The position numbers and the translations under genes were made by a program. Positions 2,480-9,674 of a stretch of 42,910 bases of DNA are shown piece after piece. The notes under the pieces are model-generated. The model saw only the letters and a list, made by a program, of their open reading frames with translations, was not told where the DNA came from and made no database searches. The DNA is from Prochlorococcus sp. AG-311-J23 (GTDB lineage Bacteria; Cyanobacteriota; Cyanobacteriia; PCC-6307; Cyanobiaceae), in the NCBI GenBank assembly GCA_003284375.1, contig QBVL01000011.1, forward strand, positions 1 to 42,910. The letters run 5' to 3'. Every line of letters starts with the position of its first letter. The stretch's first letter is position 1.

Positions 2480-2626
2480 TTAATCTTTCTTTCCTCTTAA
2501 AATCATTATTAGTGGTACACCTACAGTAAAAAGTATCCCTATGGTTAGGATGGTTAATCCCATTGGGGAAAGGATCTCTACTCCTCCCATTACTTGTGAT
2601 GCTTTTTGAGTTGTAGCAATAATCAT
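2480..2626 (-). CDS. Small single-pass membrane protein coupled to the ligase-like gene (48 aa)
   Basis: The 48 residues consist of a polar N-terminus, one long hydrophobic segment (about 17-43, PMGLTILTIGILFTVGVPLI) and a basic end (RGKKD). Its ATG overlaps the stop of the upstream ligase-like gene by one base (TAATG on the minus strand). This suggests translational coupling and one operon. No family is recognised. A membrane partner for the upstream protein is inferred from the overlap only. Confidence 0.55.
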   Translation of the reverse strand: MIIATTQKASQVMGGVEILSPMGLTILTIGILFTVGVPLIMILRGKKD

Positions 2627-3312
2627 TAATTTATGGCGTATGCCCAAGGTATTGATAGGTTATTTTCTCTAAGACACTTTTGCAATTTTCTTGAATTGAT
2701 TTTCAGTACTAGTCCATTTGTTGGATAGCTTGTAAATAACTTACCCTCTCTCCAACATTGAAGATAGATTTCGATATCAGAAATGAAGTTTGTAAATTGA
2801 GTTTGAGGAATTTCAAAATTTAGATGTTTTAATTCCTGAAGTGATTGAAAATGATTAATATTGCATTGACATATTTGAAAAGCGCAGAATTTAAGTCTTT
2901 TAGACTGTGATATGAAATTTTGAATATCTATGAATTCAGTTTCATTTTTTCTAGTTGATAAATTTTTATCGTCGTAAAGAACTCCTTGTATTTCTAGTCT
3001 GTTTTTAATCGGTAGGCTTTTAGGAATAATTTTTAGAGACCTTACACTTTCTGTAATGTCTTGACTATTTTTATTTATGACCTTGTTTAATTCTCCATTG
3101 ATATATTGAATGCCAATGATTGATCCAATGATTTTTGGTTCTAAAATTATTCTTGTATTCGGAAGAAATATCTCCAACCATTCACTAATATTTCCTTGTC
3201 CTAATGATAAGAAGGCTTTTCTTCCAGATTTGTAATTAAAGATAGAATTGTCTGGAGATATTCTCTCAAGATTCCTTTCAAGGTGATTTGATACCTTAAT
3301 CTTTTCTCTCAT
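2626..3312 (-). CDS. LigA adenylation-domain-like protein, stand-alone (paralog A)
   Basis: The 228 residues follow the nucleotidyltransferase domain of NAD-dependent DNA ligase in order. AFLSLGQGN (33-41) matches the PMLSLxN region and EPKIIG (58-63) is motif I with the AMP-accepting Lys60. LEIQGVLY (106-113) lies at motif III, PTNGLVLK (197-204) at motif IV with Lys204, and IPWAYAIN (221-228) at the start of motif V. There is no Ia, OB-fold, zinc, HhH or BRCT domain. The Asp of KxDG, the Glu of RGE and the motif V Lys are replaced, so normal ligase activity is doubtful. A second copy lies at 7342-7950. The function is unknown: it could be a diverged NMP transferase or a nucleotide or nucleic-acid binder. 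Confidence 0.7.
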   Translation of the reverse strand: MREKIKVSNHLERNLERISPDNSIFNYKSGRKAFLSLGQGNISEWLEIFLPNTRIILEPKIIGSIIGIQYINGELNKVINKNSQDITESVRSLKIIPKSLPIKNRLEIQGVLYDDKNLSTRKNETEFIDIQNFISQSKRLKFCAFQICQCNINHFQSLQELKHLNFEIPQTQFTNFISDIEIYLQCWREGKLFTSYPTNGLVLKINSRKLQKCLRENNLSIPWAYAIN

Positions 3313-3403
3313 CTTTAAGTCCTACATTTTATCAAATTAGTTTGCTTTTTATAATGGTAGGCATATTTAATATAGATAAATTTTGCTTTTTGTAAGATCA
3401 GAA

Positions 3404-3679
3404 ATGAGCCGATATTATTGCCCATTCTGCTCTTCTCGTTATCAATTTCATAAAACTAGTAGCGATGGTGTTTTGATTTGTGGTCTATGCGGTGACCCAT
3501 TAGTTAAAAAGCCCTTATTAAATTCAAGACGGATTATTGGAGCAGTTGCCGCATCCGCATTTCTAGCTCCTTTACTAATAATGATTATTTTTGTTATTAA
3601 AGATTTTTCTAAGGAAAAACTCCCAAACAATTCTGATTCCTTAGTCCTATTAACTATTGATAAATCATGGTTAATATAA
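3404..3679 (+). CDS. Zinc-ribbon plus transmembrane protein
   Basis: From the ATG at 3404 this is a 91-residue protein. The N-terminal zinc ribbon has two CxxC knuckles (YYCPFCSS and LICGLCGD). After a basic linker there is one strong membrane helix (AAVASAFLAPLLIMIIFVI region) and a short tail. A TTG at 3383 would add seven residues; the ATG immediately before the ribbon (MSRYYC) is preferred. It overlaps the next gene by 13 bases, so the two are likely co-transcribed. Proteins of this layout occur widely in picocyanobacteria, but no function is established to my knowledge. Confidence 0.65.
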   Translation: MSRYYCPFCSSRYQFHKTSSDGVLICGLCGDPLVKKPLLNSRRIIGAVAASAFLAPLLIMIIFVIKDFSKEKLPNNSDSLVLLTIDKSWLI

Positions 3680-4299
3680 ATCCCGACTATCGCCTAAATT
3701 TTCCGGCTACGACAAGGAATCGTGATCCCATCGCCGAAGTTTTAAGCAATTATATTTCTCCTAATTGCTGTCTTTTAGAAATCGCTAGTGGTAGTGGACA
3801 ACACGGAGTCTTCTTTCAAAAAAAATTCCCATCAATTACTTGGCAAACTAGTGATCCCGAATTTGAACATAGACAAAGTATTAATTCATGGATTAAGCAT
3901 GAGGGGCTTTATTCAAAAATGCCTGAACCTCTTAATCTTGATGTAGATATGCGTCCTTGGTCAATTACCAATCGACTTGGAGCTTTAATTAAGGGAATTG
4001 TGTGCATAAATATGATTCATATCTCACCATGGAGTTGTACAAGATCTTTGTTTGAAGAATCAAAGAAATATCTAGATCAAAGTAATTTTTTGATGCTCTA
4101 TGGACCTTTCCTAAGAAAAGAGAAACAAACCTCAGAAAGTAATTTGAATTTTGATCAATCCTTAAAAATGCAAAACCCGCTCTGGGGGCTTCGCAACTTA
4201 GAAGCCGTTAACGATATTGCTTATGAAAATGGATTTAATCTTCATAACGTCATCGATATGCCAGCCAATAATCTTTCAGTTATTTATCGCATAAAGTAA
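3667..4299 (+). CDS. DUF938 family SAM-methyltransferase-like protein
   Basis: The 210-residue length and pattern match DUF938, a Rossmann-fold methyltransferase-like family. The N-terminal NFPATTRNRDPIAEVL is the family hallmark. LLEIASGSGQHGVFF (about residues 36-50) is the glycine-rich SAM-binding motif I, WQTSDPE is motif II, and CINMIHISPWS corresponds to motif IV. The substrate is not known. It starts inside the preceding zinc-ribbon gene (13-base overlap), which suggests coupling. The protein is soluble, with no signal peptide. Confidence 0.85.
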   Translation: MVNINPDYRLNFPATTRNRDPIAEVLSNYISPNCCLLEIASGSGQHGVFFQKKFPSITWQTSDPEFEHRQSINSWIKHEGLYSKMPEPLNLDVDMRPWSITNRLGALIKGIVCINMIHISPWSCTRSLFEESKKYLDQSNFLMLYGPFLRKEKQTSESNLNFDQSLKMQNPLWGLRNLEAVNDIAYENGFNLHNVIDMPANNLSVIYRIK

Positions 4300-4384
4300 A
4301 ATTTACATAATTTTTTCTTTCTACTAAGAATTCCAGAAATTCGGTAGATGCGATAGGAGAATAAATCCATTACGCTTATTTCTT

Positions 4385-4657
4385 GTGAAGTTCTCTGGCC
4401 CAGATGCAATTGATAACGCTATCCAAGCTGGCTTAGATCTAGATGGAAGTCCTATTCCATCAGAAATGCTGACCCTCTACAGGGATGTCATGGACAAAGA
4501 AAATGCGCGTAAAAGAAGTGGAGTTAAGAAATCAATGCGAAACCGTATTGTTAAAACTGGGTCCAAACATTTTGACAAAGACACTCTAAATACACGATTA
4601 ATCAAAGCTGGTTGGGATGGATTAAAAGCTAAAGAAATTGATTTCTTTTATAACTGA
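4385..4657 (+). CDS. Conserved cyanobacterial hypothetical protein (90 aa)
   Basis: This 90-residue soluble protein starts with DAIDNAIQAGLDLDGSPIPS and continues with a basic central helix (ENARKRSGVKKSMRNRIVK) and a C-terminal KAGWDGLKAKEIDFFYN. It has the feel of a conserved cyanobacterial family, but I cannot name one. The start is uncertain. GTG at 4385 is used, and the nearest AGGAG (4355-4359) is about 25 bases upstream, with no in-frame ATG there. The basic helix may bind nucleic acid (inference). Confidence 0.65.
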   Translation: MKFSGPDAIDNAIQAGLDLDGSPIPSEMLTLYRDVMDKENARKRSGVKKSMRNRIVKTGSKHFDKDTLNTRLIKAGWDGLKAKEIDFFYN

Positions 4658-4691
4658 GATCTGATAAGAGAACATATATCTAATATTCTAA

Positions 4692-4707
4692 GTGACACTA
4701 GTGTCAC
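4692..4707. repeat. Perfect 16-bp palindrome upstream of the hli cassette
   Basis: GTGACACTAGTGTCAC reads identically on both strands. It lies 35 bases after the stop at 4657 and 86 bases before the first ORF of the hli cassette. It could be an operator for a dimeric regulator. As RNA it is a 6-bp stem with a CTAG loop followed by a short T run, so it could instead be a weak terminator for the upstream gene. Confidence 0.5.
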
Positions 4708-4752
4708 ACTTTTCGTTAATCATTTCTTCTTGTGAGAGAAAATCGCCTTGGT

Positions 4753-4792
4753 TTGACTCTTAACTTATGTAGTTAAATTTACTGTATTAACT
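4753..4792 (+). promoter_or_regulatory. Candidate promoter/operator of the hli cassette
   Basis: TTGACT at 4753-4758 is a good -35 match, and TAAATT at 4774-4779 is a possible -10 with a short 15-base spacer. Between and over them is an inverted repeat, TTAACT-TATGT-AGTTAA (4760-4776). TTAA(C/A)T recurs again at 4787-4792, giving three copies spaced 13-14 bases. The classical HLR1 direct repeat (TTACAWW) bound by RpaB was looked for but not found in clean form. The position just before the cassette makes regulation plausible. Confidence 0.35.
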
Positions 4793-4915
4793 ATGGTTTT
4801 TGTATCCGTTGCGCCTGAATTCCACATTCATGAGGCAAGCCGTACTTTTAGGGCTTTACGTGGTTTAACAATTGGTTTACATTCGTTCACATACACATTT
4901 CGGATTTCATCATGA
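4793..4915 (+). CDS. Leader ORF translationally coupled to the hli cassette (40 aa)
   Basis: The 40-residue basic, His-rich ORF starts MVFVSVAPEFHIHEASRTF. It ends in ATGA overlap with the first hli gene (its TGA shares bases with the next ATG). It has no Hli motif. The overlap and its place directly after the candidate promoter suggest it is the first cistron or a translated leader controlling the cassette. No homology is recognised. It could be a regulatory uORF whose peptide is unimportant. Confidence 0.5.
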   Translation: MVFVSVAPEFHIHEASRTFRALRGLTIGLHSFTYTFRISS

Positions 4916-5019
4916 CTCCAGAAGCAGAAAAGTTTAACGGTTGGGCAGCAATGCTTGGTTTCGTAGCAGCCTTCGGCGCATACGCAACAACAGGTCAAAT
5001 CATTCCTGGAATTTTCTAA
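4912..5019 (+). CDS. hli: High-light-inducible protein (35 aa), cassette gene 1
   Basis: The 35-residue single-helix Hli protein has the core EKFNGWAAMLGF, with Trp in place of the usual motif Arg, and ends in ATTGQIIPGIF. That C-terminal TGQIIPG signature is typical of the multicopy, phage-shared class of picocyanobacterial Hli proteins. It should sit in the thylakoid and act in photoprotection or chlorophyll handling. Replacement of Arg in ExxNGR removes half of the usual ion pair, so pigment binding may differ or require hetero-oligomers. It is translationally coupled to the preceding ORF. The end is nearly identical at DNA level to the third hli gene. Confidence 0.85.
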   Translation: MTPEAEKFNGWAAMLGFVAAFGAYATTGQIIPGIF

Positions 5020-5052
5020 ACCGATAATTACTAACAAGTAATTACTAAAACA

Positions 5053-5172
5053 ATGCAACCATCTAACAAAACAATCCTAGAAAGAAGCATCGGCAGACCA
5101 GCCATGATGGCATTCGTTCTACTAACAGGTATTTACCTAACAACCGGTCAACTTATTCCAGGTGTTGTTTAA
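5053..5172 (+). CDS. hli: High-light-inducible protein (39 aa), cassette gene 2
   Basis: The 39-residue single-helix protein contains ERSIGRPAMMAFVL, an Hli core with Ile in place of the Asn ligand (E-R-S-I-G-R) and the Arg intact, and ends in TTGQLIPGVV. Loss of the Asn while gene 1 has lost the Arg suggests complementary partners, for example a heterodimer (inference). It begins 33 bases after gene 1, and its stop overlaps the next ATG by one base (TAATG). Confidence 0.85.
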   Translation: MQPSNKTILERSIGRPAMMAFVLLTGIYLTTGQLIPGVV

Positions 5173-5324
5173 TGACTACTCAAAAAGGCAACGACAACAG
5201 CAGAAATATCGACCCTGAAAAGGTAACTGCAGAACGACTTAACGGCTATGCAGCGTTGTTTGGATGCATTGCTTTAGTTGGAGCTTATGCAACAACAGGC
5301 CAAATCATTCCAGGTTTTGTTTAA
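5172..5324 (+). CDS. hli: High-light-inducible protein (50 aa), cassette gene 3
   Basis: The 50-residue protein has a 20-residue polar N-terminal extension. The helix then starts ERLNGYAALFG and ends YATTGQIIPGFV. Tyr replaces the motif Arg in the same position as Trp in gene 1, and the C-terminal 13 residues are almost those of gene 1, so the two are recent paralogs. It overlaps both neighbours by a single base, giving tight translational coupling. Confidence 0.85.
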   Translation: MTTQKGNDNSRNIDPEKVTAERLNGYAALFGCIALVGAYATTGQIIPGFV

Positions 5325-5443
5325 TGGAAAACAATCACTGGAAGACTGCTGAAATAATGAATGGTCGTCTCGCGATGATGGGCCTTCTTTCAGCTGTAGT
5401 CAATTACGGATTCACTGGTTGGATTATTCCAGGTTTCGTTTAA
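5324..5443 (+). CDS. hli: High-light-inducible protein (39 aa), cassette gene 4
   Basis: The 39-residue protein carries the canonical Hli core AEIMNGRLAMMGLL, with Glu, Asn and Arg all present, and ends FTGWIIPGFV. It is the only cassette member with the complete E-x-x-N-G-R-x-A-M motif. It is probably the chlorophyll-binding partner in hetero-oligomers with genes 1-3 (inference). It starts on the last base of gene 3's stop. Confidence 0.88.
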   Translation: MENNHWKTAEIMNGRLAMMGLLSAVVNYGFTGWIIPGFV

Positions 5444-5463
5444 CACCTCATTTCTTTATTAAA

Positions 5464-5574
5464 ATGTCTTTAAGTTATTGGATGCGAGCAGAAGTAGATG
5501 ATCTACTCAACGAAGATACTTTCTTTGATTGCTCAGATTATTCTTGTCTATTAGAAGACACTGAGTGGGCATAA
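5464..5574 (+). CDS. Tiny acidic protein following the hli cassette (36 aa)
   Basis: It encodes 36 residues rich in Asp and Glu with one Cys pair (FFDCSDYSCLLEDTEWA). The start is 21 bases after the last hli gene, so it is probably in the same transcript. The LLEDT(E/D)W end is also seen in the 83-residue protein at 15428-15679, which supports a real coding sequence. No family is recognised. Confidence 0.55.
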   Translation: MSLSYWMRAEVDDLLNEDTFFDCSDYSCLLEDTEWA

Positions 5575-5593
5575 GTCTTGATAAAATCCCACA

Positions 5594-5710
5594 ATGACGA
5601 CAAGATTATTTCATTGTCAATTATGCAAAAAAAATTTAGATGATTCTTTATGGCGAAGAAAAGGATTGATTTTGTGTGAAAAATGTTTCGATAAACTCCA
5701 ACATAAGTAA
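5594..5710 (+). CDS. Small zinc-ribbon-like protein (38 aa)
   Basis: The 38-residue basic protein has two CxxC knuckles (HCQLCKKN and ILCEKCFDK) about 18 residues apart. This spacing suits binding of a single zinc ion, and the whole protein is essentially one zinc ribbon. It begins 20 bases after the preceding tiny ORF and may be the last gene of the hli transcript. Its role is unknown; nucleic-acid or protein contacts are typical of such ribbons. Confidence 0.6.
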   Translation: MTTRLFHCQLCKKNLDDSLWRRKGLILCEKCFDKLQHK

Positions 5711-5942
5711 TATTGAGTGTCAAATCTTTTGACTTATAGTCTATGCTTTAAAAAAACTTGAATTGCCTTCAATATTTTATGTTTGAAATATTTTTTATTT
5801 ATTTTAATTGATATTAATACTAACTGAAGTTTTGTCTGATTCTACCCGTTTTTAATAAAAATATTTTCTAATTCCCTCCTCAGCTACCTTTCTAATCAGG
5901 TTTGAGTTAAGTTATTGTTATTGTTATTGTATATTTATAAGC

Positions 5943-6089
5943 ATGGAACGTAATACAAGCTGTTTAAAGTTTCTTTCACCTTTTTTTGGCATCTTATTTT
6001 GTCCTGTAACGATTCTGACCTTATGGTCTATTTGGTCTGATCCAGTAGTTGAATCTAAGCATGAGATTACTGAGAAAATACAGCCTTAA
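5943..6089 (+). CDS. Small single-pass membrane protein (48 aa)
   Basis: The 48-residue ORF starts MERNTSCLKF and has one hydrophobic helix (about 10-31, containing PFFGILFCPVTILTLWSIW), then an acidic tail (SDPVVESKHEITEKIQP). No family is recognised. It stands alone between a 230-base AT-rich gap and convergent minus-strand genes. Confidence 0.5.
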   Translation: MERNTSCLKFLSPFFGILFCPVTILTLWSIWSDPVVESKHEITEKIQP

Positions 6090-6164
6090 AATATTGTCAA
6101 CTTTATAAATATTCTAATTAATCCTTAATAATTTATGAGAGTTTATATTTCTATTAAATTTAAA

Positions 6165-6353
6165 TTATGATAAAGCTAAAAGTTTAACGTCCATTGTTAG
6201 TAGTTTAATAGCATTTTCCAATTCTTCTTCTGTTTGAAACCCTAGAATATCTGCAGGTTCTATACCTAGAGAACTGAAGTCTGGTTCTATTCCGAATGGC
6301 TCAATGCTTTCTAAATTTCCGACAATGTCTTCTAGTTCTTCTAATTCAGTCAT
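6165..6353 (-). CDS. Acidic hypothetical protein (62 aa)
   Basis: The 62-residue strongly acidic soluble protein is rich in Glu and Leu, with the repeated unit (S/L)(I)EP-F or GIEP (EPFGIEPDFSSLGIEPADIL). No family is recognised. It follows 6378-6629 on the same strand with a 24-base gap, so the two and perhaps 6697-6951 may be one transcript. Confidence 0.55.
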   Translation of the reverse strand: MTELEELEDIVGNLESIEPFGIEPDFSSLGIEPADILGFQTEEELENAIKLLTMDVKLLALS

Positions 6354-6377
6354 GATATTTTTCTAATGATAAATTTA

Positions 6378-6629
6378 TCAAACTTCAAGTTTGAAACCTT
6401 TATCTAAAAGTTGTTGATATGTAAGTCTTGCTTGAAATGCGAGGATCTCTATAGGCTCTTTATCGTCTCTTTGCATGATGAAAAAGTGATTGTCTTCACC
6501 TTTTCTAGCAAAAATGACAATTTCAGATCCTCTTACTAGCCTCCAGTTCTCTTGAGACTTATGCTCAGATAATGGTCCTAAATCCCATGGGGCCTTTTCT
6601 GGATACTTCTCTCTTTTTACCCTTGGCAT
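6378..6629 (-). CDS. Small 'YPE-PWDL' protein, paralog 1 (83 aa)
   Basis: The 83-residue soluble protein starts MPRVKREKYPEKAPWDLG. It shares with the upstream neighbour (6697-6951) the frame YPE-x-x-PWDL, a strand-rich middle (SEIVIFARKGEDNHFFI), and an end ARLTYQQLLDKGF. The two are diverged tandem paralogs. The fold is unknown; alternating hydrophobic strands suggest a small beta domain. There is no signal peptide. Confidence 0.62.
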   Translation of the reverse strand: MPRVKREKYPEKAPWDLGPLSEHKSQENWRLVRGSEIVIFARKGEDNHFFIMQRDDKEPIEILAFQARLTYQQLLDKGFKLEV

Positions 6630-6696
6630 GTATTAAAAGTAAATATATCTTTAAGCCTACACTTATGCTCTTCAACGTCAAGAATTAGTTTTTTAA

Positions 6697-6951
6697 TCAG
6701 GAAAAGGCGGCCAATGAATACCCCTCGTCAAACAATCTTTGGTAAGTAAACCTAGCTTCGTATTCTTTATATGCCTTTCTAATACCATCATTCTTTTGGA
6801 TGTAGACATAATTATTATCTATACGACTCCTAGTGAATACATAAACAATATCTGACTTAGATAACATCCATTGAATTGATTTTTGCTTCGTTCGATCGAT
6901 ACTTGTTAAATCCCATGGAATATTCTCCGGATATTTTTCTGGTATGGTCAT
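6697..6951 (-). CDS. Small 'YPE-PWDL' protein, paralog 2 (84 aa)
   Basis: The 84-residue protein is a tandem paralog of 6378-6629. It shares KYPENIPWDL, then SDIVYVFTRSRIDNNYVYIQ, and ARFTYQRLFDEGYSL near the C-terminus. By eye roughly a third of aligned positions are identical, so the duplication is old. Conservation of the DN dipeptide and the ARxTYQ end marks likely functional positions. No named family is recognised. Confidence 0.62.
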   Translation of the reverse strand: MTIPEKYPENIPWDLTSIDRTKQKSIQWMLSKSDIVYVFTRSRIDNNYVYIQKNDGIRKAYKEYEARFTYQRLFDEGYSLAAFS

Positions 6952-7341
6952 TGTAAACGATATCTTACTTTAAGTTATGGCATGTAATTAGTTCAGGCAT
7001 GAGAATAAATACTATTTTTGCTTAAATAATATCTATTTTGTGAGGGTATATTCAATTTATATCTGAAATTTTTACTCAAAATTCAATGATTTATCTATTA
7101 ATGCAATATAAATCTTCTGTCCAACTCTTTGGAATTAGAATAATCAGGCTATTAAATTTATTTTGTTTTAACTTTATCTCTTCTTAGGAAGATATCAATA
7201 ATATTGGTACTTTATATTTATTTGTTCATTTCCCTTTATTCGTATCTCATCTTGGTATTCGACCACCCCCTTTTTGTTTCCTTGATTTCTTAAGAAAAGA
7301 AGTTAATGAAGCGACTTGGCTCTACATGTTCCTATTGATAT
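6952..7341. other. AT-rich intergenic region (390 bases)
   Basis: This separates the divergent gene at 6951 (minus) from the ligase-like paralog at 7342 (plus) and must contain both promoters. The only ORF of note is a 33-residue plus-strand frame at 7086-7187, which is hydrophobic and basic and probably not coding. A C-run and T-run (around 7261-7277) lies 65 bases before the ligase-like start. No strong hairpin was seen. Confidence 0.5.
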
Positions 7342-7950
7342 ATGTATATGAGATTACTTGGACTAGATAAGGATTGTTTCTCTAGCTGGTGGGCAAAGTT
7401 ACCAGAGGGATCAACGATGGTTGTGCAGCCCAAAATCGAAGGTTGCGCAATAGGACTTAGATATAAATATGGCCAATTAGTAGATGCCTATTCTCGTGTG
7501 GATAGTGAGATTATTGAAAACATTAGGAATATTAATGCTATTCCTTTGAGTATTGATGACTCACTGAAAGTCGAAGTTGAGTTGGAGGGCGTATTGTACT
7601 CACCTTCCTCTAATTCCAAGATTTCATTAGAGCAATTGCTATCGAACTCATTTTCGAAAATAGATAATAATACCTCTCTTTTATTTAAAGCATTCCAAAT
7701 CTTTTGCTCAAATAGTGATGAATTGTCAGATTTGACCCAACTCCAAAACTGGGGATTTGAGGTCCCCATAACTCTAAGAACTGATGATCCTAGGCAGGTA
7801 AAGAGATGGCATTCTCAATGGATCAAGAATGAGTTATTTTCAAATCTTCCTACCAATGGGATCGTAGCTAAATGCAATTCATCTTTGACTAAGAATATTT
7901 TGGGTGTTAGTCCTTCCTCTCCTAATTGGGCTTTGGCTTTAACTAGATAA
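7342..7950 (+). CDS. LigA adenylation-domain-like protein, stand-alone (paralog B)
   Basis: The 202-residue protein carries the same block order as 2626-3312. LLGLDKDCFSSWW (5-17) lies at the LigA MLSLxN region. QPKIEG (29-34) is motif I with Lys31, and VELEGVLY (79-86) is at motif III. Then come FKAFQIF, NWGFEVP, LPTNGIVAK (169-177, motif IV with Lys177) and SPNWALALTR (193-202, start of motif V). The sequence ends there: no OB-fold, zinc, HhH or BRCT. KxDG has become KIEG, RGE has become EGV, and the motif V Lys is missing. The N-terminus is about 30 residues shorter than paralog A; an in-frame TGA at 7336 blocks extension. Activity is unproven, but the preserved motif I Lys suggests nucleotide chemistry or binding. 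Confidence 0.7.
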   Translation: MYMRLLGLDKDCFSSWWAKLPEGSTMVVQPKIEGCAIGLRYKYGQLVDAYSRVDSEIIENIRNINAIPLSIDDSLKVEVELEGVLYSPSSNSKISLEQLLSNSFSKIDNNTSLLFKAFQIFCSNSDELSDLTQLQNWGFEVPITLRTDDPRQVKRWHSQWIKNELFSNLPTNGIVAKCNSSLTKNILGVSPSSPNWALALTR

Positions 7951-9317: not shown

Positions 9318-9674
9318 ATGCTCACTGGTAAGGATTTATTAGCCAAGGTCAAAGACTTGGGAGATGTCTCAAAATCTGATCTTGTTAAAGCTTGTGGATA
9401 TGTTTCCACAAAGAAAGGAGGCGGAGAACGTCTTAACTACACTGCTTTTTACGAAGCACTTCTCGAGGCTAAAGGTGTAAACCTAGCTGCTGAAAGTGCT
9501 GGTGGTATTGGTAAAGGTGGAAGAAAGCTTAGTTACGTGGCTACCGTTCAAGGAAATGGAAACCTCTTGATAGGAAAGGCCTATACAGCTCTTTTAGATC
9601 TCAAGCCTGGCGATAATTTTGAGATTAAGATGGGACGTAAAGGATTCCGTTTGGTTCCAGAAGGCGAAGGTTAA
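9318..9674 (+). CDS. Cyanobacterial AbrB-like transcription regulator (cyAbrB)
   Basis: The 118-residue protein matches the cyanobacterium-specific AbrB family, which has a dimeric DNA-binding beta-barrel at the C-terminus rather than the N-terminus. The N-terminal helical part (LTGKDLLAKVKDLGDVSKSD) includes the family segment VKACGYV and GERLNYTAFYEALLEAKG. The C-terminal part, KLSYVATVQGNGNLLIGKAY to PGDNFEIKMGRKGFRLVP (about 69-115), is the AbrB-like strand swap. Family members regulate nitrogen, carbon and redox genes. Whether it is cyAbrB1 or cyAbrB2 is not decided here. It is monocistronic, with its own strong terminator. Confidence 0.88.
   Translation: MLTGKDLLAKVKDLGDVSKSDLVKACGYVSTKKGGGERLNYTAFYEALLEAKGVNLAAESAGGIGKGGRKLSYVATVQGNGNLLIGKAYTALLDLKPGDNFEIKMGRKGFRLVPEGEG

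Follow-up and report, generated by a model that had tools for sequence, protein, structure and literature searches.

The adenylation half of the NAD+-dependent DNA ligase LigA consists of domain Ia and a nucleotidyltransferase (NTase) domain, and LigA needs the Glu of its RGE motif and the Lys of its motif V. Domain Ia of these ligases handles the leaving group (PMC6698739). Here we describe two genes of Prochlorococcus sp. AG-311-J23, on a 42,910-nucleotide stretch of contig QBVL01000011.1 (the window), whose products, proteins A and B, are stand-alone and degenerate versions of the NTase domain. They are probably two independently domesticated mobile-element NTases that no longer adenylate and now act by binding only. 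Their features, in window coordinates, with lengths in amino acids (aa) and open reading frame abbreviated as ORF, are:

2626..3312, minus strand: protein A, 228 aa, a stand-alone degenerate LigA-type NTase recognised by its ORF, PF01653, ortholog alignment and fold; motif I EPK60IIG63, motif III E107IQGV111, motif IV TNG200LVLK204, motif V end W223AYAIN228
7342..7950, plus strand: protein B, 202 aa, a stand-alone degenerate LigA-type NTase without domain Ia, recognised by its ORF, PF01653, alignment and fold; motif I QPK31IEG34, motif III E80LEGV84, motif IV TNG173IVAK177, motif V end W196ALALTR202

Genes of this kind have been in print under another description. NATL2A_955315_954713 and NATL2A_959226_959912 are given as 'DNA ligase' genes specific to the low-light I (LLI) clade in Table 2 of PMC6102989, which groups such clade-specific genes under DNA repair. 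One of our genomes, G002, is NATL2A, and its B and A coordinates equal those of the two genes to within a stop codon. A viral 'NAD-dependent DNA ligase' family is also listed among those kept in low-light strains (PMC11357015). Among the literature matches listed, and in the parts of them available, we found no account of a stand-alone NTase family or of LigA loss in Prochlorococcus.

Fold, motif losses and conservation of A and B

PF01653 matched A with 42.3 bits (E 8.6e-11) and B with 61.4 bits (E 1.3e-16), both exceeding the curated Pfam cut-off of 27 bits. In NCBIfam, the LigA and LigB models alone were matched, all far under their whole-ligase cut-offs, and the PDB sequence search matched DNA ligase chains exclusively, 11 with A and 15 with B. 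AlphaFold models, each built with 18 rows, had a predicted local distance difference test score (pLDDT) of 80.7 and a predicted template-modelling score (pTM) of 0.77 for A, and 86.9 and 0.85, respectively, for B. Using Foldseek, the LigA NTase domain was the first match to both models (A: 8jyd, E 9e-12, TMq 0.69; B: 7k72, E 2.9e-15, TMq 0.79), with ATP-dependent ligases ranking lower. The match of A and B to the LigA NTase domain is well beyond chance, and the first-pass annotation, which had recognised both genes and the LigA order of their motifs from the letters alone and had named this fold as the structure to look for, is borne out. The same is true of its statement that both proteins end at motif V, as the frames stop 0–4 residues past the motif V Lys position without continuing, and the OB fold, zinc finger, HhH and BRCT are all missing.

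Catalytic residues were scored in one alignment of 109 distinct family ORFs with phage and LigA rows, while the domain Ia signature and the AxGxLR loop were scored by pattern, that for domain Ia being of our own making. In B the motif I Lys is kept in all 26 readable orthologs, and the Asp of this motif (KxDG) is D in 15, E in 8, A in 2 and V in 2 of 27. Every one of the 27 B orthologs has Glu for the Arg of RGE, Val or Ile for its Glu, Asn for the motif IV Asp and Thr for the motif V Lys, with the motif IV Lys intact throughout (27/27). Among 27 A orthologs, the motif I Lys is K in 25, R in 1 and E in 1, and the motif I Asp has become Ile in 25 and Asn in 2. The RGE Glu is gone in 26/27 (one ortholog retains it) and the RGE Arg is left in 9/27; the motif IV Lys is intact in 27/27 and the motif IV Asp gone in 26/27, with the motif V Lys retained in 2/27.

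The domain Ia signature was found in none of the 27 A and none of the 27 B proteins, compared with 9/9 LigA, 10/10 phage and, in two of the groups of stand-alone relatives described below, 7/7 HL1 and 7/9 C proteins (one of the two C misses is a sequence cut by a contig end). Protein A retains ~40 residues ahead of the NTase domain. Likewise, the AxGxLR loop occurs in 0/27 A and 0/27 B proteins, compared with 9/9 LigA, 9/9 C, 7/7 HL1 and 9/10 phage proteins; the single pattern match in A is a different stretch, ahead of motif I, and was not counted. All tested motif residues are intact in LigA (9/9), group C (9/9) and phage proteins (10/10), the last with Phe in place of Tyr as the IIIa residue, and in all seven HL1 proteins except for the motif V Lys (6/7). 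The HL2 proteins are partly degenerate, with Glu for the motif V Lys in 7/8 and the AxGxLR loop gone, and copies from g46 and g48 have Gln for the motif IV Lys in 6/6 and again no AxGxLR loop; degeneration is not confined to A and B.

The first-pass annotation had the KxDG Asp, the RGE Glu and the motif V Lys replaced in both proteins, and the motif I and motif IV Lys kept. For the RGE Glu and motif V Lys this stands in all B and nearly all A orthologs, one and two of the latter, respectively, being exceptions. Replacement of the KxDG Asp is right for A but not for B, where 15/27 keep it, and the motif IV Lys is kept as described, as is that of motif I in B but not in two A orthologs. Loss of the RGE Arg, the motif IV Asp, the domain Ia signature and the AxGxLR loop went beyond what had been noticed then. 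Taken together, these losses argue against ligase activity of the NATL2A LLI 'DNA ligase' genes, and from the motifs the ligase and repair label looks wrong for A and B.

Ortholog counts were taken from match tables, with full LigA matches left out. With the window included, B is present in 27/41 genomes of the genus at 75–94% identity and A in 27/41 at 48–96% identity. Among the 17 genomes that are at least 90% complete, 15 have both genes and two, G014 and G032, have neither, and in the 17 genomes with A and B on one contig they lie on opposite strands, 3.7–4.6 kb apart. There are no stops inside the ortholog matches of the 27 A and 27 B genes, with the B gene of one locus (L031) running off its contig. 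The ratio of non-synonymous to synonymous substitution rates (dN/dS), as the median of pairwise Nei-Gojobori values, was 0.154 for B (26 genes) and 0.398 for A (27 genes). For window neighbours it was 0.209 (DUF938 gene), 0.334 (zinc-ribbon gene), 0.349 (gene at 1929), 0.196 (gene at 6697) and 0.046 (gene at 6378), and for the relatives 0.243 (C), 0.204 (HL1) and 0.310 (HL2). A and B evolve under purifying selection, and neither the frequent stops nor the dN/dS near 1 of a decaying pseudogene is seen in either, which points to a conserved function, in agreement with the earlier proposal of a function in place of decay. Two genomes of the sample weigh against simple conservation, as the B-like gene of G011 lacks motif V and only stop-bearing pieces are present in G039; a family member with five stops was found in G171, from another genus.

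Stand-alone relatives, their tree and a genus lacking LigA

The closest intact relatives of B form group C, whose members are stand-alone, stop at motif V and have domain Ia and every motif. When 300 genomes of the family were sampled, stand-alone copies turned up in several other genera. All 23 genomes of genus g18 had at least one, 19 of them two or three, and the copies of g11, g53, g4, g7, g17, g28 and g47 were degenerate forms. Across a sample of 386 genomes of the phylum, stand-alone copies were, among the matches listed, confined to this family, and the listed matches outside it were all in frames of at least 653 aa. IMG/VR viral contigs hold intact versions of 239–280 aa. On one of these (L166) the NTase gene adjoins a tail-like gene downstream of a VapE-like helicase gene, and on another (L172, 56-1224) it shares a one-base overlap with a RusA-like resolvase gene; two further contigs from the same scan (L173, L174) encode full ligases, and a C protein as query gave no match to viral contigs. 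One 3.2-Mb genome, G236, holds four stand-alone copies (L138, L139, L140) with Gln for the motif IV Lys, of which those at L138:12188-12979 and in L139 start in overlap with a small HTH-like gene.

In an IQ-TREE phylogeny of 73 rows, with the root placed at the midpoint for drawing, LigA and subunit A of the T5-type split ligase fall together in one clade (100/99). The sister of B is C (100/98), and A lies in another clade (100/99) with the g18 (HL) copies, phage L172 and L262, and the g53 copy of L120. A and B are single chains that stop at motif V and lie outside the LigA clade, and in this they belong with the stand-alone proteins, although they do not have the intact catalytic residues of C and the phage proteins. 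Intact members of the larger clade of A are the L120 copy, HL1 and phage L172, and the grouping of phage L172 and L262 with host HL1 (99/91) suggests exchange between phage and host. Mapping residues on the tree required seven changes for 'all five key residues intact' (T5 subunit A being scored as broken), five for loss of the RGE Glu and eight for loss of the motif V Lys. Because the A and B lines each have intact relatives, loss is most simply convergent and not from one dead ancestor, so that the losses in A and B would most simply be separate events. The two proteins had been described as paralogs with parallel loss; the losses are indeed found in both, although the pair are not recent within-genome duplicates.

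Three other origins were considered and rejected. Duplication within a genome does not account for A and B, as they fall in different supported clades, and a truncated host LigA is rejected as source by the separate clade of LigA and T5 subunit A. A recent origin from a known isolate phage is rejected likewise, with one record matched for B and seven for A, all weakly; the isolate-phage matches H1, H2 and H5 are located in genes of ~670 codons. The split-ligase partner PF03120 was detected in none of the seven virus records with intact relatives, which are fragments. In the five cellular genomes having it, PF03120 was always in a 690–711 aa frame, and in G002, G004 and G007 the sole match was in a frame of 690–699 aa.

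Genus g18 (1.6–1.7 Mb) we take to be high-light Prochlorococcus, by a presumed link through the names of NTase relatives, MIT 9314 and MIT 9401, and the clade to which these would belong. PF03120 was matched in 0/3 g18 genomes, and in the family sample in 250/300 genomes (172/196 of high quality). With full LigA as query, 23/23 g18 genomes gave stand-alone NTases only, bar one 93-aa frame in G212 (G212:C4:29407-29604) that matches LigA residues 619–684 and is a LigA C-terminal remnant; five control genomes gave full LigA with the same full-length query. An ATP-dependent ligase of 444–452 aa was found in 23/23 g18 genomes, compared with 0/10 genomes of four other genera, an example being:

G133:C1:1595837-1597168: ATP-dependent ligase of g18

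These results indicate that this presumed high-light genus has no LigA. Replication in bacteria is generally taken to rely on an NAD+-dependent ligase, and the g18 genomes, going by their gene content, do not fit this.

Mobile elements around intact relatives, and the neighbours of A and B

In the LLI genome G007, tRNA-Pro(TGG) is intact, and its 3' half recurs further on as two perfect 43-bp copies, displaced by 9.4 and 19.1 kb. The first element (9.4 kb) encodes, in order from the displaced copy inward, a tyrosine recombinase, an intact NTase, a DUF4214 protein, an HTH_17-like protein, a capsid-protease fusion and a VapE-like helicase. The recombinase matches PF00589 with an E-value of 5.9e-6 and 26.6 bits, against a cut-off of 27.1, and PHROG integrases at 2e-15, and the end of its gene overlaps the start of the intact NTase gene by 4 bp; a 4-bp integrase-NTase overlap recurs in L068. 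The capsid-protease fusion matches PF05065 (3e-47) and PF04586. On these genes, the first interval can be read as a phage-satellite-like integrated element.

The two G007 intervals (G007:C1:1184828-1204062; L065, L296) appear as a tandem array of two elements integrated at tRNA-Pro(TGG), the second of which carries an Mrr-ParA fusion and an AAA_25 protein. The DUF4214 protein after the integrase-NTase pair (L065:16887-19109) is 740 aa long with a cadherin-like stretch, an unusual satellite-like cargo. In L065, L067 and L138 a displaced tRNA-Pro half separates an NTase from a divergent integrase homolog on its far side. The NTases of L066 and L069 start 36–37 bp from an intact tRNA-Pro, the second Met being our choice of start codon in L066. 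In L120 the intact NTase and a DUF938 homolog are 1.7 kb apart and flank an integrase fragment; as the DUF938 family flanks both this gene and A in the window, this suggests, without proving, how A arrived. The window itself has no tRNA and no tRNA-Pro piece of at least 14 bp, and an Rfam scan of it gave no RNA element at the gathering score.

Around A and B the window holds the following genes:

2480..2626, minus strand: 48-aa protein, hydrophobic over one stretch; the ATG of its gene overlaps the A stop codon (TAATG)
3383..3679, plus strand: gene divergent from that of A and found in A loci; its product starts like a zinc ribbon and has a hydrophobic stretch
3667..4299, plus strand: DUF938 protein (PF06080, E 3e-65)
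6378-6629 and 6697-6951, minus strand: two small paralogous proteins adjoining B, genus-wide, without Pfam match
9318..9674, plus strand: AbrB-like regulator on the B side of the conserved block (PF14250, E 1.1e-27), with homologs near B

The 48-aa protein adjoins A in 26/27 A loci, mostly with the same stop-start overlap, so the coupling of A to a small gene proposed in the first-pass annotation is real; that this is a membrane protein is a putative assignment, its helix being judged by eye. It has no Pfam match and was found in 25/201 family genomes, some in genera without a listed stand-alone NTase, where it has no tie to A. It was not found in G032, which is without A, an absence that is weak given the small query. 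For the protein at 3383..3679, all zinc-ribbon matches were under the Pfam cut-offs, and the 6378-6629 protein has the lowest dN/dS measured (0.046). The window is ORF-poor at about 4700–6150, and in several fragmented assemblies A and B are split over contigs (for example G008, G034 and G026, where each lies 1.6–2.4 kb from a contig end), so the intervening sequence may break assembly.

Interpretation, rival readings and comparison with known systems

We suggest that the ancestor of these proteins was a small mobile-element protein, composed of LigA domain Ia and the NTase domain and stopping at motif V. In the LLI lineage both chromosomal copies would have retained the fold and dropped domain Ia, the RGE Glu, the AxGxLR loop and the motif V Lys. 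A and B would then no longer form Lys-adenylate and would act through binding, the ligand most likely being an adenylate or some protein or DNA with which the ancestral NTase was partnered, with A perhaps acting at the membrane via the overlapping small gene. As to the use of such binding, the most likely, tentative as it is, may be to interfere with phages or satellites that arrive carrying the active protein, an idea that comes from intact relatives on viral contigs and in an integrated element, while the chromosomal copies look dead and yet are kept. Sensing of adenine nucleotides is a use that we would hold more doubtfully still, and otherwise other binding may be involved.

A number of observations weigh against the reading of A and B as domesticated binding proteins. 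An integrase homolog within 1.5 kb was found in only 5/9 C loci (one a remnant), 1/6 g46/g48 loci and 1/1 L120 (truncated), and in 0/27 A, 0/27 B, 0/16 HL and 0/22 other loci. Two of the three integrase queries had no Pfam or PHROG match and count as integrases by similarity to the third. In G004 and G014 the C gene lies by an intact tRNA-Pro, with no displaced tRNA half in the stretches examined. The g46/g48 copies fall on the LigA side of the tree, weakly (79/85), and a single clade or origin of all stand-alone proteins is thus not established. Among the genes compared A is the loosest (dN/dS ~0.4), near the values of two neighbours. Loss of adenylation and the binding role are deduced from sequence, and the retained Lys of motifs I (25/27 A; 26/26 readable B) and IV (27/27 each) mean that residual chemistry could remain. 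As to the putative interference role, no PADLOC model matched A or B at E 0.01, a result that leaves room for a new defence system; for two relatives, HL1 (E 0.006) and phage L166 (E 0.002), the PADLOC matches were weak.

The same two Lys residues, together with the strong constraint on B (0.154), are what would be expected if A, B or both were active nucleotidyltransferases with a rewired site, moving adenosine monophosphate (AMP) or another nucleoside monophosphate (NMP) onto a protein or nucleic acid. We consider this improbable, as the domain Ia signature and the AxGxLR loop are absent from every A and B protein, the RGE Glu is gone in 53/54 and the motif V Lys in 52/54, and the nucleophile itself is replaced in two A orthologs, by Arg and by Glu. 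For the same reasons, the dispensable motif I Lys of A (2/27) included, the different NMP-transfer reaction put forward in the first-pass annotation has become less likely. That A and B are slowly decaying mobile-element relics, now functionless, would agree with the dN/dS and variable motifs of A, with the truncated or stop-bearing members of the wider family in G011, G039 and G171, and with G014 and G032, both at least 90% complete, having neither gene. This also seems to us unlikely, if a shade less so than active transfer, because the 54 matches are free of stops (one B running off its contig), dN/dS is below 1, with B below two of the three genes beside A, both genes occur in 15/17 high-quality genomes, and the small gene behind A is kept in 26/27 loci.

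The least probable of the alternatives, in our judgement, is that the target of A and B is the LigA of the cell itself, with the two serving as additional subunits or as decoys. The LLI genomes tested have full LigA, and G002, G005 and G007 have no PF01068 ligase, so that LigA would be the ligase available to act on. Relatives persist, however, in 23/23 sampled genomes of g18, a genus without LigA, and a role as LigA partner therefore cannot explain the whole family. A bolder version of domestication, to which we give little credence although more than to any of these three, is that phages and satellites use the LigA half-enzyme as an NAD+-charged adenylate carrier in integration, excision or replication, and that LLI twice captured it and made of it a dead competitor that blocks such elements, in one case tethered to the membrane; the half-enzyme and integrase were seen as one gene pair in one element.

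LigA half-enzymes are spread through a picocyanobacterial family, marine viral contigs and one phage-satellite-like element. With intact and dead members on one tree, the switch from enzyme to pseudoenzyme is testable with few expressed proteins. Furthermore, an NTase gene that starts inside the end of an integrase gene, as at two loci, points to an unstudied step in recombination or element replication.

Of the systems already described, tycheposons and the capsid-carrying satellites of picocyanobacteria resemble the first G007 element, which is similarly integrated at a tRNA and has a tyrosine recombinase, a VapE-like helicase and a capsid-protease, a likeness in genes that assigns it to no class. 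A and B are themselves not in such an element, and the integrase family of PMC10187409 sits at tRNA-Phe or tRNA-Cys, compared with tRNA-Pro in G007. Subunit A of the T5-type split ligase (phiAPCEc03 APCEc03_111; the PR1 phage ligase, PDB 9hu3/9i5i) is likewise a piece of a phage NAD-ligase in which a separate chain carries the NTase. However, it runs past motif V into what appears by eye to be an OB fold and is followed by the subunit B gene, whereas the stand-alone family stops at motif V; it also groups with LigA, away from A and B, which have no OB fold. The adenylation half of LigA (domain Ia and NTase, PF01653) is like A and B in predicted fold and motif order, but A and B differ from it in being without the domain Ia signature, the RGE Glu, the motif V Lys and the AxGxLR loop and in falling outside the LigA clade, while the intact stand-alone C and phage proteins keep, as it does, every motif residue tested.

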